A model generated the notes under the pieces. The model was not told the DNA's origin. It was given only the letters and a program-made list of their open reading frames with translations, and made no database searches. A DNA stretch of 63,886 nt from a virus, in the IMG/VR virus record IMGVR_UViG_3300050120_000442, positions 1 through 63,886 of that record. The stretch is one strand, 5' to 3'. Of this stretch, positions 33,365-63,886 are shown piece by piece. Position 1 is the first letter of the stretch, and each line of letters starts with the position of its first letter. Position numbers and translations under genes: made by a program.

Positions 33365-34597
33365 TTATCCTACTAAGTCCTTTTCATGGCTAGTGCCGAG
33401 CAATGTATTTATTTCATTATCGAAATAGAACGGCGCATCTGGTAACAGGAACCGGCGACGAATATCAGCCGAGAAACCATCATTGGCCTCGATCAGTACA
33501 CAGTCGAAACCCTCGGCCTTGGCCGCTGCTCCCGTCGTGCCGCTACCGGCAAAAGGGTCCAGGACCAGGCCGCCGGCCGGCGTCACCAAGCGGCAGAGCC
33601 AGCGCATCAGAGCGATCGGCTTAACGGTGGGGTGTTCGCTACCCGCCCGGTCGGCTTTGCCCGCCTTGGGATGGTAGTGAAGCGGATCTGCGGCAAGTTC
33701 TGCGACCCACTCATCTGAACCTACTGTGAACGCATTGTAGAAACGCGCGGTGTCGCCTGCGAACATTGCCGCCACTTCAGGCGATCCGTCGTGCAAGATA
33801 TTGGCCGGCCAGCGGCCTTTCGGCTGGACGAAGTCTCCACCCCCGTTGCGGAAGCCTGCACCCTTGCCACCCGCCCGATCTTCCGACTGCCACCCAGCCC
33901 CGCGCTCACGGCGCTCACCCGAGTAGGCGCCCCCGTTCAGGTTGTCCTCGGTGGGTGCCCGGCATGCGTCGATGTTGATGGCGCCGACGCCATGCATCAG
34001 GAAGTTCGCGGGGCCGTTCTTCTCGCTGAACGCCTTCTGGCCGACGTAGATGGGTTCCAGGGCGGGCTTGGTCGCCTGCGCCCCGTAATACCAACCGTCC
34101 CAGGCCTCGGCCTCGGGTGACACGGGAATGTATTCTCCGATCACCTTGGCCGGGACCACGCCCAGGTGTTTGTCGATCGCCATGGCCGCGTTGTGGGCCT
34201 TGGGCATTCCCGAGCCGTAGGCCCAGCCGAAGAACGGATGCATGATGAAGCCGGCCAGCTCCATGGCGCAGGCCTGCCAATGGCCGGTGCGCGGGCTGCT
34301 GAACGCCAGGACGTAGCCGCCGGGCTTGAGCACCTGGTAGATCAGATGCCAGAACTCCGGGTCGCGCTCGATGCCCGTGGCGTCCCAGGTGTTGCCCATG
34401 AACCCCCTGGACGCTCGGGCGAAGGCGCCGTCAGTCCCGTGCTTGGCCGGCGCGGCGTCCGCCTTCCCGAACCGCTTCGTGATCGAGGTCAGGCCATAGG
34501 GTGGGTCTGTGCAAACCGAGTCGACGAAGACACCATTCGCGATCATCCATCGCAGGACTTCGCGGTTATCGCCTTGGTGGAACTGAAGCTGGGTCAC
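33365..34597 (-). CDS. DNA adenine/N4-cytosine methyltransferase, beta-type order
   Basis: A 410-residue AdoMet-dependent methyltransferase. Catalytic motif DPPYGL comes near the N-terminus (CTDPPYGLTS), and the AdoMet-binding DPFAGSGTTGAAA lies near residue 360, the order of beta-class enzymes (the class of CcrM), with HPTVKP just before it. The central 150 residues are probably target recognition. I prefer GTG at 34597 (VTQLQFHQGDN) because GGAG precedes it by eight bases; a TTG at 34645 would add 16 residues. It is the last gene of the leftward operon containing the CtrA-like and GapR-like genes. It ends EKDLVG, one of the recurrent tail motifs. Specificity cannot be read from sequence. 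Confidence 0.88.
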   Translation of the reverse strand: MTQLQFHQGDNREVLRWMIANGVFVDSVCTDPPYGLTSITKRFGKADAAPAKHGTDGAFARASRGFMGNTWDATGIERDPEFWHLIYQVLKPGGYVLAFSSPRTGHWQACAMELAGFIMHPFFGWAYGSGMPKAHNAAMAIDKHLGVVPAKVIGEYIPVSPEAEAWDGWYYGAQATKPALEPIYVGQKAFSEKNGPANFLMHGVGAINIDACRAPTEDNLNGGAYSGERRERGAGWQSEDRAGGKGAGFRNGGGDFVQPKGRWPANILHDGSPEVAAMFAGDTARFYNAFTVGSDEWVAELAADPLHYHPKAGKADRAGSEHPTVKPIALMRWLCRLVTPAGGLVLDPFAGSGTTGAAAKAEGFDCVLIEANDGFSADIRRRFLLPDAPFYFDNEINTLLGTSHEKDLVG

Positions 34598-34661
34598 TGG
34601 GTCAGCTCCATTCCAAAGGTTAACGTGCTTTGGTGCGTCGAACAAGAACGAAAGGAGAACA

Positions 34662-34898
34662 TCAGCCGATCAGATCATCATCTTCGTCGGCACCGGTGAA
34701 CGGCATCACCGGCTGCAGGCTCATGTCGTAGCGCGTGGCCTTCGCCCGCCGGACGATAGACTCGAGCTTGGCGACGAAGGCAGGGATCGCGTTAATCCCC
34801 ATCACGTGCCCTGGGTGACCCTGGACGACGTGGCGCAGCCGCATGGTGATCGACTGGTCGCCGACTTCGATATCCAGGTTGCCGCAGTTTATGGTCAT
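34662..34898 (-). CDS. Small unknown protein with acidic DDDLIG tail
   Basis: A 78-residue protein with a beta-rich N-terminus (INCGNLDIEVGDQSITMRL), a helical centre and a C-terminus ending EDDDLIG, the clearest example of the repeated tail motif. No family is recognised. The start overlaps the stop of the preceding gene (ATGA), so it belongs to the CtrA-like operon. Confidence 0.55.
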   Translation of the reverse strand: MTINCGNLDIEVGDQSITMRLRHVVQGHPGHVMGINAIPAFVAKLESIVRRAKATRYDMSLQPVMPFTGADEDDDLIG

Positions 34899-35242
34899 CC
34901 GATCAGGTCGTCCTCAGGCGATGCCGGGGAGGGCTCCACGTGGGCCGGATCGACGTCGTCGTCACCCAGAGCCGGGGCGCGGGTCGTCTTGCCATCACTG
35001 GCCTTCTGGAGGGCGTGCAGGACAGCATCCGGCGCAGAGGGGCCATAGGCAAACTCGAAGAACTCGCTGTGGTCGCGCTTGCGGAGCGAGCATTGCCACT
35101 GGCCATCCGACCGGTGGCAGAGGTTGGACACGCGCAGCCCGCCCTCGCGGACCACCCGGAACAGGCGCTCCAGGGGTGGCGGGATGGCCATGGCCAGCAT
35201 CTGGGCGATCTCACCCTGCCGGGTCGCGGTATAGGCGCTCAT
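34895..35242 (-). CDS. Small unknown protein with acidic EDDLIG tail
   Basis: A 115-residue protein of unknown family. The middle (GLRVSNLCHRSDGQWQCSLRK) is strand-rich with two Cys residues, and the final 25 residues are acidic and Pro-rich, ending PEDDLIG. It overlaps both neighbours by ATGA, directly downstream of the CtrA-like gene, implying coupled translation with it. Confidence 0.55.
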   Translation of the reverse strand: MSAYTATRQGEIAQMLAMAIPPPLERLFRVVREGGLRVSNLCHRSDGQWQCSLRKRDHSEFFEFAYGPSAPDAVLHALQKASDGKTTRAPALGDDDVDPAHVEPSPASPEDDLIG

Positions 35243-35982
35243 GCAGCGTTCTCATGCCAAGCTCGATGTTCGGCTGACCCATCGTTGGCGGCCTCGGGTT
35301 GGACAGGCGCCGGGACCTCGCGCAGGACGTAGCCGCGGCCCCAGACCGTTTCGATACAGTCGCCGGCACCCGCAAGCTTCAGCTTCTTGCGCAGCTTGCA
35401 GATGAACACGTCGATGATCTTGATCTCGGGCTCATCCATGCCGCCGTAGAGGTGGTTGAGGAAGACCTCCTTGGTGAGGACGTTCCCCTTACGGAGCGCC
35501 AGTAGCTCCAGCATCCCGTATTCCTTGCCGGTCAGGTGGATAGGCTTGCCGTTTACCTGGAGGCCCTTGGCACGGGTATCGAGCGACAGGGCGCCAATCT
35601 CCAACAGCGATTGCGCATGACCCTTCGACCGGCGGATGATCGCGTCACCCCTGGCTATCAACTCGTCCAGGGCGAGCGGGATACCCAGATAGTCGTCGGC
35701 GCCGGCCGCGAACATGCGGACTTTTGCGTCGATGTCGGTAGTAGTCGAGATGATCATCACCGGGGACGCGATCTTCGCCGCCCTGATGCGGCGCAGAACA
35801 TCCAAGCCCGTCATATCGGGCAGGTCTAGGTTCAGCACGATCAGGTCGTATTCGTAGATCTTGGCCAAATCGATGGCTTCCGCGCCGAGGTCAGTCGTGA
35901 ACACCGTCTGCCCAGACGCCTTGAGCGCCAGTTCCATGGACCGGGCCAGGTTGTCGTCCATCTCGGCGATCAGGACTCGCAT
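35239..35982 (-). CDS. CtrA-like response regulator with a non-phosphorylatable receiver
   Basis: A 247-residue OmpR-type regulator. The DNA-binding half (HLTGKEYGMLELLALRKGN, then NHLYGGMDEPEIKIIDVFIC, then ETVWGRGYVLR) is nearly identical to what I remember of Caulobacter CtrA. The receiver has lost key residues: the phospho-acceptor position is Asn51 (VLNLDLPDMTG, where CtrA has LLDLNLPDMSG with D51), acidic-pocket residue 8 is Met, and the conserved Lys101 is Ile. S79 is retained. The C-terminus ends NAA, like the ClpXP-recognised Ala-Ala end of CtrA, after an added 20-residue linker. ATG 35982 is chosen because it aligns with CtrA and has GGAG seven bases upstream. It presumably binds CtrA sites without phosphorylation to redirect host cell-cycle transcription; that is inference. 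Confidence 0.9.
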   Translation of the reverse strand: MRVLIAEMDDNLARSMELALKASGQTVFTTDLGAEAIDLAKIYEYDLIVLNLDLPDMTGLDVLRRIRAAKIASPVMIISTTTDIDAKVRMFAAGADDYLGIPLALDELIARGDAIIRRSKGHAQSLLEIGALSLDTRAKGLQVNGKPIHLTGKEYGMLELLALRKGNVLTKEVFLNHLYGGMDEPEIKIIDVFICKLRKKLKLAGAGDCIETVWGRGYVLREVPAPVQPEAANDGSAEHRAWHENAA

Positions 35983-36287
35983 CACTTGGCTCCGTCGCAA
36001 AATTGATCAGGGGTGACTGAGGACGAGAGGTCGCCAAGGCCGCCCGACCAGCCTGGAATATCGACCAGGTAAGTCTTGGTGACCGGATCTAGGCCGACGA
36101 CTGTCCCGTTGGCGCATGTTCGGACAGCAGAGGCGCGCGCCCACTTCTCCGCGCGCACCGCAGCCGGATCTGTTGTCGGCGCACAGGCCGCTAGGCTGGC
36201 CAACGCAGTTAGGCCCATCATGAGCGATATCGCGCTGCCCACGGCAAGCAGTAGTCCGACCATGCGCGGCGTGTTGATCGACGACAT
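35982..36287 (-). CDS. Small lipoprotein in the CtrA-like operon
   Basis: A 101-residue protein with a signal peptide and lipobox (LASLAAC), followed by a short mature part with two further cysteines (TCANGT and FCDGAK). The start and stop overlap the flanking genes (TGATG at both ends). Its function is unknown. An envelope protein expressed with DNA-binding regulators suggests a lysogenic-conversion or superinfection-exclusion role, but nothing in the sequence proves it. Confidence 0.6.
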   Translation of the reverse strand: MSSINTPRMVGLLLAVGSAISLMMGLTALASLAACAPTTDPAAVRAEKWARASAVRTCANGTVVGLDPVTKTYLVDIPGWSGGLGDLSSSVTPDQFCDGAK

Positions 36288-36571
36288 CACAGACCCCCGA
36301 TCGCGGCGAGATAGAGGTCGAGGATGGCCTCTTCCTCCAGTCGCTTCGCCTCGTCCTGCTTGCGCAGGCGCACGACCATACGAAGGATCTTGACGTCGAA
36401 CCCTTCTCCCTTGGCTTCGAGGTAGACTTCCTTGATGTCCGCCATCACGGCAGCCTTGTCCTCATCCAGGCGCTCGACGCGCTCGATGATGGTCTTGAGG
36501 CGCCCCTGGGCAGTGGAGTTCAGGACGTCGATCGAAGCGTCGTCGCCGCTGTTGTGTCCCATGCCAGCCAT
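36287..36571 (-). CDS. GapR-like DUF2312 nucleoid-associated protein
   Basis: A 94-residue protein matching DUF2312: IIERVERLDEDKAAVMADIK, then EVYLEAKGEGFDVKILRMVV and LRKQDEAKRLEEEAILDLYL. This is the conserved helical core of GapR, an alphaproteobacterial protein that encloses overtwisted, AT-rich DNA and affects replication and cell-cycle transcription. The N-terminus MGHNSG is typical of phage-borne copies. The ATG at 36571 overlaps the previous stop (TGATG); the longer open frame upstream is a shadow. Placement three genes from a CtrA-like gene and in the same transcript suggests a joint effect on host chromosome behaviour. Confidence 0.88.
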   Translation of the reverse strand: MAGMGHNSGDDASIDVLNSTAQGRLKTIIERVERLDEDKAAVMADIKEVYLEAKGEGFDVKILRMVVRLRKQDEAKRLEEEAILDLYLAAIGGL

Positions 36572-36930
36572 CAGGCGGCGACCTTCTGCACTCGACCAAC
36601 CCTGGGCTTCGGCGCCTTGTAGGGCTCGGCGAGAGCGGCGCGCAGCGCGACCCCGAACCGCTGGCTCGACGAAAGGTACTTCGCCGGCAGCTCCGACACC
36701 TGGCAGTGCCGCACCGCCTCGATCGTCAGCCTGCGCGACATCCGCTTGCGTTCGCCGCGGGTCATCCGAACGCTCTCGACCGATCCGTCCGGCTGGAGGA
36801 TATCGACGTCCTTCACATTCTTCGACGGACGGCGAACGCCGCCACGCGGGGCGTGCCCGGCCTTGTAGTCGCGACCCATGGCCTGGGCCTGAGCCCACGG
36901 AACGAAGAGAGTTTGAGCTGCGTTAAACAT
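36571..36930 (-). CDS. Unknown basic protein, first gene of the CtrA-like operon
   Basis: A 119-residue basic protein (pI clearly high; RGGVRRPSKNVKD, TRGERKRMSRRLTIEAV). No family is recognised; it could bind nucleic acid. ATG 36930 is chosen because GGAG lies six bases upstream; the longer frame would run into the operator. It is the promoter-proximal gene of the leftward operon, with a perfect operator palindrome only 21 bases upstream. Confidence 0.55.
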   Translation of the reverse strand: MFNAAQTLFVPWAQAQAMGRDYKAGHAPRGGVRRPSKNVKDVDILQPDGSVESVRMTRGERKRMSRRLTIEAVRHCQVSELPAKYLSSSQRFGVALRAALAEPYKAPKPRVGRVQKVAA

Positions 36931-36950: not shown

Positions 36951-36965
36951 TCAACTTTAGGTTGA
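36951..36965. promoter_or_regulatory. Operator palindrome TCAAC-N5-GTTGA (exact), CtrA-operon leader
   Basis: Exact copy with spacer TTTAG. It lies between an AT-rich -10-like CATAAT/TTAT stretch (minus strand, about 36966-36973) and the Shine-Dalgarno of the gene at 36930, where a bound repressor would block initiation or early elongation of the CtrA-like operon. Confidence 0.72.
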
Positions 36966-46681: not shown

Positions 46682-46882
46682 TCAGTCGGTTTTGCGGAAT
46701 CGGTGGACGCGAGCGGGCGGCGCCACTTCGACGGTCACCCCTGCAGCCGCCATCGCATCGACGACCTTGGATAAACCCTTGGCCGTGAAGCGTACCTCAA
46801 TCAGCGCCCGCACCTTCGCCAGCTCGGGCGACACACGGTCAATCACGACGATCTTGCGCCGGCCGTCATCAGACGTTGACAT
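46682..46882 (-). CDS. Small protein downstream of the antitoxin
   Basis: A 66-residue protein (KVRALIEVRFTAKGLSKVVD) of unknown family, overlapping the 3' end of the HigA-like gene by 14 bases. It may be a third component of the toxin-antitoxin operon; this is inference from the overlap. Confidence 0.5.
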   Translation of the reverse strand: MSTSDDGRRKIVVIDRVSPELAKVRALIEVRFTAKGLSKVVDAMAAAGVTVEVAPPARVHRFRKTD

Positions 46883-47285
46883 GCGACTTGCCTTTCGTGC
46901 GGCCCTTGGACGCTTGGCCAGGTTGATAGGTGGTCACCTTGCCAATGCCGAGAGTCGTTGTGGTCCGCCCGTCTTCGTGATGCTCAATAGTCGGATTGAA
47001 TGTAGGCGTTACCGCGATGAGTTGAACGCCAAGCGCCTCAACAACCTTAAGCACTGTCGCTAGTTCCGGGTTACCGTCATGAGATAATGAGCGATAAAGC
47101 GTTTGCCTGTTCAATCCAGTGTCACGCGCCAGCTTCGCAAAGTTGTTAGCGCGCATACATATACCTAGTGCATCGGCGATCACTGCAGCGTTTCCACTAG
47201 ACATTGCGCTATTGAGGTATCCTGCGATGTCGTCTGGCGTTAATAGGTGTTCTGCCGGATCGAACGGCGTTGTTTCAACAGTCAT
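46869..47285 (-). CDS. HigA-like antitoxin (addiction module antidote)
   Basis: A 138-residue protein with an XRE-type helix-turn-helix: NFAKLARDTGLNRQTLYRSL followed by HDGNPELATVLKVVEALGVQ. This is the signature of the HigA/TIGR02684-like antidote family. It is longer than usual because of a 45-residue C-terminal extension (THEDGRTTTTLGIGK-like). It overlaps the toxin gene by ATGA, in toxin-first order as in higBA loci. Antitoxins of this family repress their own promoter. Confidence 0.82.
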   Translation of the reverse strand: MTVETTPFDPAEHLLTPDDIAGYLNSAMSSGNAAVIADALGICMRANNFAKLARDTGLNRQTLYRSLSHDGNPELATVLKVVEALGVQLIAVTPTFNPTIEHHEDGRTTTTLGIGKVTTYQPGQASKGRTKGKSHVNV

Positions 47286-60469: not shown

Positions 60470-60484
60470 TCAATTTTAGGTTGA
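60470..60484. promoter_or_regulatory. Operator palindrome, one mismatch
   Basis: TCAAT-TTTAG-GTTGA, 70 bases upstream of the repressor ATG. Confidence 0.62.
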
Positions 60485-60553: not shown

Positions 60554-61279
60554 ATGACCACCGAGCCCGAGGTTCCGCCTGCTGCTCGCCTGATCCGTGA
60601 GAACGGAAAGGAAGTCCGTGAGCCCGGCTTCGCCAAGCGTTTGCAACAGGCGATGGACAACAATCCCTACGTGCCAGACATGATGTATGGCCGGATGACC
60701 TGGGTCCGAAAGGAGCTAGAGAGCCGGTTTGGCGTCAAGGTCAGCCTGCAAGGTCTCGGCCGCTGGTATTATGGTGAGACCAAACCAAAGGTTGGAAATC
60801 TGGTTGCCCTGGCCAAGCTCCTGGACGTTGACTCGATCTGGCTGGCGCACGGTATTGAATCCGAGATGACGCCGCGCGAACAGAAAGTCCGTAACGCCCT
60901 GGTCGATGGCGCCGTCAATCTTGTCGCAGGCTTGATCCAGATGAACGGCGGCCACCCCGCCTTCCCCGAGTCTGACGATGAGCGGGCCGAGAAGAGTCGG
61001 ATTGATCTCTACGCGATCATCAAGGGCGCGCAGTACGCCTTCCATGTCTCCACGGCCCAGGAAGTCCCTGGCGCCCAGCGGTTCATCCTGCCAACCAACT
61101 ATATGGAGGCGTTTCAGATGGGTGTCGTGCTGACCGACATGGCCGGCATCACTTTGATCGAGATCACCGAAGACCTGGTCGAGCAGCGCGGCACGAAGAA
61201 GGGTCACGGCTTCGAGGTCATCCTGAACGAAGCGGAGATCGAGGCTGCCAAGATCCACAGCCTTCGCAACCGATTGTAG
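60554..61279 (+). CDS. XRE-type phage repressor, candidate operator-binding protein
   Basis: A 241-residue protein. After a 35-residue N-terminal arm, residues 40-100 (MTWVRKELESRFGVKVSLQG, then LGRWYYGETKPKVGNLVALA, then KLLDVDSIWLAHG) are an XRE helix-turn-helix. The C-terminal domain (RIDLYAIIKGAQYAFHVSTA to IHSLRNRL) is alpha/beta and lacks the Ser-Lys dyad of LexA/CI repressors, so induction by RecA cleavage is not expected. Flanked on both sides by copies of the palindrome, it is the best candidate for their cognate protein and for immunity; direct evidence is lacking. Confidence 0.7.
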   Translation: MTTEPEVPPAARLIRENGKEVREPGFAKRLQQAMDNNPYVPDMMYGRMTWVRKELESRFGVKVSLQGLGRWYYGETKPKVGNLVALAKLLDVDSIWLAHGIESEMTPREQKVRNALVDGAVNLVAGLIQMNGGHPAFPESDDERAEKSRIDLYAIIKGAQYAFHVSTAQEVPGAQRFILPTNYMEAFQMGVVLTDMAGITLIEITEDLVEQRGTKKGHGFEVILNEAEIEAAKIHSLRNRL

Positions 61280-62452: not shown

Positions 62453-62667
62453 TCCTACCCACCTGGATTCCAAAGGTCGGCCGCCCGTTCAACCCGGATT
62501 ACGCTGAGACCTGGGAAGTCATGGATGACAACGCTAAGCGTTGGTCCTGGCTGTTCGATGCTGCTGTCGTGGTGGTCATGATCGGCGTGCTGCTGGTCTT
62601 CAGCCGATTAAGTCCTCATCATCTTCTGCCAGTCGATCGAGGAAGTCTGCCCACCATTGCATCATGA
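62449..62667 (+). CDS. Small single-span membrane protein
   Basis: A 72-residue protein with a hydrophobic helix (about residues 32-52, SWLFDAAVVVVMIGVLLVF). Its 3' end overlaps the 3' end of the convergent integrase gene by 68 bases. Family unknown; the ATGA overlap with the DUF2158-like gene supports expression. Confidence 0.5.
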   Translation: MILPTWIPKVGRPFNPDYAETWEVMDDNAKRWSWLFDAAVVVVMIGVLLVFSRLSPHHLLPVDRGSLPTIAS

Positions 62668-63799
62668 TCTTGCGGCCGGGTAGATACTCGGCAGCATTGT
62701 AGGCCTCGCGTACCTGGTTCTTGTCCTTGTGCGCGAGCTGCCGCTCGATCCAGTCGCGGTGAAACCCGTGCTCGTTGAGGACAGTGGACGCCATCCGCCG
62801 GAAGCCATGGCCGGTCATGTCTGTCGTCCCGTAGCCCATCCGCCGCAGCGCCGCGTTGATGGTGTTCTCGCTGATCGGCCGGGTGATCGAGCGCACCGCC
62901 GGGAACAGCAGTTCGCCCGGCGTCATCCCCATCGCCTCCCGGACGACCGCGACGGCCTGGCGCGAGAGCGGGACGAAGTGGGGGAGGGTCATCTTCATCC
63001 GCTCGGCTGACAGCGTCCAGATCCCGGCGTCCAGATCGAACTCCGACTTGGCGGCGAACCGCAGCTCCTTCGACCGCACGAACGTCAGCGCCACAAGCTG
63101 CAGGGCCGACCGCGTCGCGAAGTTGCCATCGTAGCCGCGCAGGGACCTCACCAGCGGCCCGATCCTTTTCGGATCGAGTATGGCGGCGTGGTGGGTGACC
63201 TTGGGTGCCAGGGTGGCTCCCCTGAGCGGCACGGTAGGATCGTGGATCGCCCTGGCCGTGCGAATCGCGAACCGGAACACGGCGCTGCAGGTCGAGCGCA
63301 GGCGAACCGCGCTTTCCAGCCGTCCGGTCTTCTCCACCCGTGCCAGGATCTCCAAAACTTCCGGCGGCATGATGTCGGCGACAGGTCTGTTGCCCAGCAT
63401 CGGGTAGGCCAGGCTCAGAAGCCAGGTGTGCTTCTTGATCGTGCCGGGGGTGGCGCCGTCCGCCGTCCGCCGCAGGAGCCATTCCTCGGCGACGACCTTG
63501 AAGGTGTTCGCTGAGCTGACGGCCGCCGTGATCTTGGCCAGGCGCTTGACGACGGACGGGTCCTGGCCACCGGCCAGTGTCTTGCGAGCAGTCTCGCGCG
63601 CCGCCCGCGCCGCGCCCAGGCCAACCAACGGGTAGGCGCCGAGGGTCAGCTTTTTCTGCTTCCCGCTGAACCGGTAGGCGAGATTCCAGGCCTTCGACCC
63701 GTTGGTCCGCACCAGTAGGTAGAGTCCGAAGGCGTCGCTGAGCTTGTAGTCCTTCGCCCGAGCCTTGGCCGATCGGACCTCTAATTCGGTGAGCGCCAT
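62600..63799 (-). CDS. Tyrosine integrase, P4-like
   Basis: A 399-residue site-specific recombinase. The N-terminal DUF4102-type arm-binding domain (MALTELEVRSAKARAKDYKL, SDAFGLYLLV, then YRFSGKQKKLTLGAYPLV) is followed by a core-binding region and the catalytic domain: TFVRSKELRFAAKSEFDL has the first Arg, GHGFRRMASTVLNEHG the H-x-x-R box, LAHKDKNQVREAYNAAEYL the last His and the Tyr nucleophile. It catalyses integration at an att site I cannot locate here. ATG 63799 is preferred; the open frame reaches the window edge. The C-terminus DDEDLIG is a further copy of the recurrent tail. Confidence 0.93.
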   Translation of the reverse strand: MALTELEVRSAKARAKDYKLSDAFGLYLLVRTNGSKAWNLAYRFSGKQKKLTLGAYPLVGLGAARAARETARKTLAGGQDPSVVKRLAKITAAVSSANTFKVVAEEWLLRRTADGATPGTIKKHTWLLSLAYPMLGNRPVADIMPPEVLEILARVEKTGRLESAVRLRSTCSAVFRFAIRTARAIHDPTVPLRGATLAPKVTHHAAILDPKRIGPLVRSLRGYDGNFATRSALQLVALTFVRSKELRFAAKSEFDLDAGIWTLSAERMKMTLPHFVPLSRQAVAVVREAMGMTPGELLFPAVRSITRPISENTINAALRRMGYGTTDMTGHGFRRMASTVLNEHGFHRDWIERQLAHKDKNQVREAYNAAEYLPGRKIMMQWWADFLDRLAEDDEDLIG

Positions 63800-63886
63800 G
63801 TGCCCTCTGTTGGCCTGGAGAGGGTAGCTCTGGCAGAAGGCCACCCGAAAGGCCAACAAAAACGGTGGCTCTATACGGAACTTCAT

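Follow-up and report, generated by a model that had tools for sequence, protein, structure and literature searches.

Results

Gene content of the phage and the gene run around ctrA

The DNA analyzed here, referred to as the window, is the whole of virus record IMGVR_UViG_3300050120_000442, a stand-alone virus contig of 63,886 bp. Its phage genes encode terminase, portal, capsid, protease, tail proteins, DNA polymerase and integrase, with matches to head, portal and tail PHROGs. The terminase shares 57% identity with that of Achromobacter phage AchV4, 53% with Ruegeria DSS3-P1 and 49% with Rhodobacter RcRios, which is assigned to Casjensviridae by its own record; judged by terminase and structural genes, the window is a Chi-like (Casjensviridae) siphophage. 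The first-pass annotation had described the ctrA-like gene as phage-borne, and the terminase, portal, capsid, tail and integrase genes of the window bear this out. The phage is probably temperate, because it carries a tyrosine integrase gene (62600..63886, minus strand) and an HTH repressor-like gene (60554..61279, plus strand; HTH_3-like but below the Pfam cut-off, PHROG "transcriptional regulator/repressor"). These two genes make the earlier term "prophage" a fair one, although the record itself is a virus contig standing on its own. No tRNA genes that might hint at the host were found in the window. An antitoxin-like HTH protein (PF21716, addiction module antidote) is encoded at 46869-47285 on the minus strand.

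The ctrA-like gene (35239..35982) lies in a tightly packed run of minus-strand genes in the order gapR, orf, ctrA, orf, orf and DNA methyltransferase, with a palindrome at its head. The head of the run is occupied by a hypothetical gene (36571..36930; start MFNAAQ, GGAG before the start), followed by a 94-aa GapR homologue upstream of ctrA (36287..36571; PF10073, E 8.9e-31) and a small ORF of 102 aa with a lipoprotein-like N-terminus and no clear family (35982..36290). The stop codon of the 102-aa ORF overlaps the ctrA start codon (TGATG), and translational coupling of the two is therefore indicated. Downstream of ctrA are two hypothetical genes without a Pfam match, one of 115 aa whose start overlaps the ctrA stop codon (34895..35242; ATGA) and one of 78 aa (34662..34898), and the run ends with an N6/N4-type DNA methyltransferase (33365..34645; PF01555, E 6e-23; phrog_67), for which codon scoring prefers a start at 34597. 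GANTC, the CcrM methylation site, was counted 128 times in the whole window, against ~173 expected from neighbouring-base counts. A scan for promoters and terminators near the ctrA gene gave results at chance level.

Loss of the phosphorylation residues in the phage CtrA

In model alphaproteobacteria the cell cycle depends on the essential regulator CtrA, which is controlled through phosphorylation of Asp51. Translation of the window ORF (35982-35239) gives a 247-aa protein ending in WHENAA, with a receiver (residues 1-120) and an OmpR/PhoB winged-helix DNA-binding domain (approximately residues 125-222). Pfam detects Response_reg at residues 3-111 (E 1.5e-19) and Trans_reg_C at residues 145-220 (E 2e-20). 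Proteins of this architecture that resemble it best are CtrAs, the best match of the receiver is the Brucella CtrA receiver, and the CtrA recognition helix and DNA-binding-domain signature are present (MDEPEIKIIDVFICKLRKKL ... ETVWGRGY). On a tree of cellular CtrAs the protein forms a long end branch with no settled position, and for this reason donor and host are given only as Alphaproteobacteria.

Codons 8, 51 and 101 of the window gene are ATG (Met), AAC (Asn) and ATC (Ile). We take Asp8 to be the Mg2+ site, Asp51 the phosphate acceptor and Lys101 the phosphate contact. In a genome scan covering many orders, position 51 was Asp and position 101 was Lys in all 80 cellular CtrAs, and position 8 was Asp in 79 and Gly in the remaining one. 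A second set, drawn from genomes spread evenly across the class, had Asp8, Asp51 and Lys101 in 30 of 30 proteins. Pooling the two sets (110 in total, with two of the 30 coming from genomes already in the set of 80) gave Asp51 with Lys101 in 110/110 and Asp8 in at least 109/110. The receiver structure of Brucella CtrA (PDB 4QPJ chain C), which aligns to the window receiver without a gap, also has Asp at its position 51. The three changed residues had been named in the first-pass annotation, and the codons and the 110 cellular proteins confirm them; at the acceptor position, on which that proposal had been staked, the alignment has Asn51 and no Asp.

With Asp8, Asp51 and Lys101 all gone, the receiver, as read from its sequence, cannot accept phosphate at the normal site, as the first-pass annotation had predicted. 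Bypass of the CckA/ChpT relay, also proposed there, would be the simplest reading. Its further suggestion was that the protein may still be cleared by proteolysis through the C-terminal Ala-Ala. The protein does end in ENAA, but an AA end occurs in only 13 of the 80 cellular CtrAs and in 6 of the 77 predicted window genes, the capsid gene included, and makes a weak pointer to ClpXP turnover.

Asymmetry between the two domains and predicted fold

We compared the domains at near-invariant positions, meaning those where at least 95% of the 80 cellular CtrAs agree. In its DNA-binding domain the window protein retains 43 of 43 such positions, in line with the earlier statement that this domain is nearly the same as in CtrA, whereas its receiver retains 31 of 38. 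All seven changes (L5I, D8M, D51N, L78I, G80T, K101I and F103L) thus fall in the receiver (7/7, against 0/43 for the DNA-binding domain; one-sided P = 0.0036) and lie within or beside the phosphorylation site; three of the five catalytic positions are among them (P = 0.035). The receiver losses, by this sequence comparison, are not scattered drift. The residues K87, D96, D97, E107, R111, R117 and R118 are all retained, and presumably form the alpha4-beta5-alpha5 dimer interface as established for the OmpR/PhoB family.

The receiver is predicted to be normally folded. In an AlphaFold model most of its residues have a pLDDT above 90, and the modelled receiver superimposes on 4QPJ with a TM-score of 0.95 (by target length) and an rmsd of 1.1 A; the arrangement of the two domains is uncertain (pTM 0.58). 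The whole-chain model superimposes best on DNA-bound CosR (8uvx_B, TM 0.89 by target length) and PmrA (4s04), and the phosphorylation-independent HP1043 (2hqr) is also among its structural matches. We concluded that the DNA-reading half of the protein is under strong constraint and that the switch half is chemically dead yet folded, with its dimer face retained.

Viral relatives and recurrent loss of the switch

Scans of viral sequences yielded 17 two-domain viral CtrAs including the one in the window; four of the 17 come from putative viral contigs (L092, L093, L095 and L098), and replication or packaging genes of phage were found in L091, L094, L101 and L102. Position 51 is altered in 9 of the 17. 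Asp51 is kept in eight (L091-L093, L095-L098 and L103), Glu51 is found in four (L004, L094, L099 and L102), Asn51 in the window and L100, and Gly51 in L101; the two remaining proteins, L105 and L106, have partial receiver deletions, and the position is lost or misaligned there. In all four Glu51 proteins Asp8 is replaced (P, S, P, P) and Lys101 is retained, while both Asn51 proteins have lost Lys101. The Glu51 proteins correspond, as natural variants, to D51E, the phosphomimetic used in the laboratory. A tree was built with these columns left out; on it, position 51 underwent at least seven changes of state, all in viral rows, although the tree was a quick one and many of its nodes are weak.

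Repeated and differing loss of the switch in related phages suggests that phages may run or block the host programme irrespective of host signals. It is quite possible, if somewhat short of an even chance, that phages have convergently freed CtrA from CckA-ChpT as a locked mimic, as a phosphate-blind form or by deletion of the receiver. The locked-mimic route would combine Glu51, loss of Asp8 and retention of Lys101 (four phage proteins, about three tree lineages); the phosphate-blind route would combine Asn51 with loss of Lys101 (the window and L100).

The same survey bears on the view that the receiver simply decayed once a host gene had been captured; on this view the protein depends on its DNA-binding domain alone, the missing switch serves no specific purpose, and decay would end in deletion of the receiver. 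In all viral copies the receiver is less similar to cellular CtrA than is the DNA-binding domain, two receivers are partly deleted, and many more viral proteins consist of the DNA-binding domain only, with new N-termini, including those of R. capsulatus Casjensviridae (RcRios among them) and of RDJL phages. Against decay, the window receiver has no indel, has a good predicted fold and keeps every interface residue that was tested, its losses cluster at the active site, and Glu51 recurs with Lys101 retained. We regard decay as improbable.

The proteins with the DNA-binding domain only form a large set (L117-L151, RDJL and RcRios). An AA end is present in 20 of 37 of them versus 43 of 335 surrounding long ORFs, an excess inflated by related sequences. 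In gp59 of RcRios (L226:2647-3252), annotated only as helix-turn-helix, the CtrA DNA-binding domain is fused to DUF6456. In eight viral contigs (L108, L110-L116) a host-like ctrA is represented near the contig end by its 3' part alone, broken at the same codons (LNHLYGGMDEPE), and in L110 a tyrosine integrase gene adjoins the break. The common break codons and the position of this integrase suggest prophages with an attachment site inside the host ctrA.

Sister phage G002 (L091/L002) resembles the window in having GapR directly upstream of ctrA; identities to the window proteins are 74% for GapR, 54% for the terminase, 45% for the repressor and 60% for CtrA. Unlike the window protein, G002 CtrA has D8, D51 and K101 intact and has lost the dimer-interface residues K87 and E107. 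Phage use of CtrA does not depend on losing the switch, since G002 CtrA, seemingly in the same position, keeps all three residues. Cellular CtrAs show little or no variation at K87 and E107, and the ctrA gene of G002 is thus damaged at other places than that of the window. Among 49 GapR loci from the viral scan, none had a CtrA-like domain within 5 kb, which rules out GapR-CtrA as a general phage module; the pairing is recurrent, not general.

CtrA boxes and a dispersed phage palindrome

Canonical CtrA boxes (TTAA-N7-TTAAC) are not enriched in the window. The scan, which covered canonical boxes, perfect or with one mismatch, as distinct from half-sites and degenerate sites, found no perfect box and one place with a one-mismatch box (~1.25 expected), and a CtrA-box regulon within the phage was dropped. 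One-mismatch boxes also precede ctrA in L102 and L100; these include sigma-70-like -35 sequences, and we gave them no weight.

A different element is abundant. The palindrome TCAAC-N5-GTTGA is present in 13 exact copies and one variant, with ~0.5 expected for the looser form TCAA-N7-TTGA. Eleven of the 14 sites lie outside predicted coding sequence, mostly just before genes, although noncoding sequence makes up 10% of the genome (P = 3e-9). One site (TCAACTTTAGGTTGA, 36951..36965) has its centre 28 bp ahead of the gene that opens the ctrA run, and two others, at 60470 and 61287, lie on either side of the HTH repressor-like gene. The palindromes are probably a dispersed operator set of the phage owned by this HTH gene, and the simplest reading is that the operator of the repressor would also control the ctrA run.

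Could the window CtrA itself bind these palindromes and govern a regulon of the phage? The number and noncoding placement of the sites, including the one before its own run, would fit, and so would their build, with two TNAA-type half-sites at the 7-bp spacing of TTAA-N7-TTAA. The recognition-helix residues, however, are those of host CtrA, the repeats of the palindrome are inverted and some of their bases altered, and two copies flank the repressor-like gene. The palindrome was also not found in ~24 kb of sequence of G002, which has GapR-CtrA but a diverged repressor. The palindrome as a CtrA site was therefore ranked below the HTH-repressor explanation, and we give a phage regulon of this kind little credence.

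Discussion

We favor, with a little better than even confidence, the reading in which the window CtrA is blind to the phosphorelay, works mainly at CtrA sites of the host and is encoded in a run controlled by a phage operator. The lack of enrichment for canonical CtrA boxes in the phage makes sites on the host chromosome the more probable targets. The operator would silence the gapR-ctrA-methyltransferase run in lysogeny or until early infection, a timing read only from the operator-like palindrome. Once made, CtrA would dimerize without phosphate and bind CtrA boxes on the host chromosome, and CtrA-controlled host genes (replication origin, motility or division, depending on the host) would be fixed in one state; GapR and the methyltransferase would meanwhile act on DNA topology and methylation. 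Chances are about even that occupancy of the sites would be activating, as proposed for gafA in Rhodobacter, or would block host CtrA~P. CtrA normally prefers the phosphorylated form for DNA binding (PMC9437464), and an unphosphorylatable CtrA could therefore be a weak binder.

The protein might instead be a dominant-negative decoy that pairs with host CtrA through the retained dimer interface, or occupies CtrA sites but fails to recruit polymerase, so that CtrA-dependent genes would be turned off or the replication origin released. One version has flagella or pili genes switched off as superinfection exclusion in a Chi-like phage. In favor of a decoy, the dimer-interface residues are retained and the phosphate chemistry is lost, and by terminase the relatives of the window are flagellotropic Chi-like phages (for flagellotropism, PMC9437464). 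Several related phage CtrAs with Glu51 and Lys101, on the other hand, look like activating mimics, and the direction of the effect is not readable from sequence. We consider a decoy rather unlikely, and keep the phosphorelay-blind CtrA on host sites as the preferred reading.

The first-pass interpretation is partly supported as a whole. It missed the GapR, methyltransferase and operator context, the published phage CtrA (PMC6363796) and the recurrence of switch loss. If phages have indeed freed CtrA from the relay repeatedly and convergently, viruses would possess a general means of taking over a master regulator of the bacterial cell cycle, which in the window comes together with GapR and a methyltransferase. 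The natural viral CtrAs with Asn51, with Glu51 or without a receiver form an allelic series, to which G002 adds a sister protein with an intact switch, and this series allows one to ask how unphosphorylated CtrA acts on DNA and whether phages steer the host cell cycle with a regulator beyond the reach of host signals.

Compared with alphaproteobacterial CtrA, an OmpR/PhoB response regulator, the window protein has a collinear receiver and winged helix (up to ~63% identity) and shares the C-terminal AA with some cellular members; it differs in that D8, D51 and K101 are replaced and in being phage-encoded beside gapR and a methyltransferase. Work on R. capsulatus has proposed that unphosphorylated CtrA activates gafA and has shown that overexpression of D51A CtrA doubles gene transfer (PMC6363796). 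Phages that defer lysis are, like the window, alphaproteobacterial phages tied to CtrA: they carry CtrA boxes and read host CtrA (PMC9437464), whereas the window phage carries the CtrA protein in a genome without an excess of boxes. The first report of GapR in a Casjensviridae phage, by its authors' account, dates from 2025 (PMC12185513).

In the open-access papers searched, we found neither the E51/D8/K101 pattern nor GapR-CtrA pairing described, nor any phage CtrA whose acceptor residue is substituted; phage CtrA appears in these papers only as a receiver-less protein. Such a CtrA has been published for Roseobacter phage RDJLphi1 (PMC6363796). RDJLphi1 and its relatives share with the window a phage-borne CtrA DNA-binding domain freed from phosphorylation, but their proteins (151-153 aa) have no receiver and carry an extra C-terminal stretch, whereas the window protein has a folded dead receiver and a different gene context. 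Among chromosomal regulators, CosR of Campylobacter jejuni has N51 and is proposed to work without phosphorylation (PMC3938529); in CosR and in HP1043 of Helicobacter pylori, with N51 or a deleted phospho-site, phosphorylation-independent action is reported or proposed (PMC3938529, PMC3139631). Both resemble the window protein in missing the phospho-site, the window protein retains the alpha4-beta5-alpha5 interface, and the CosR-DNA structure is a close fold match; they are, however, regulators of Campylobacterota and are neither CtrA nor viral. We concluded that a phage-borne CtrA freed from phosphorylation is already known, and that a folded receiver with a substituted acceptor is a new form of it.
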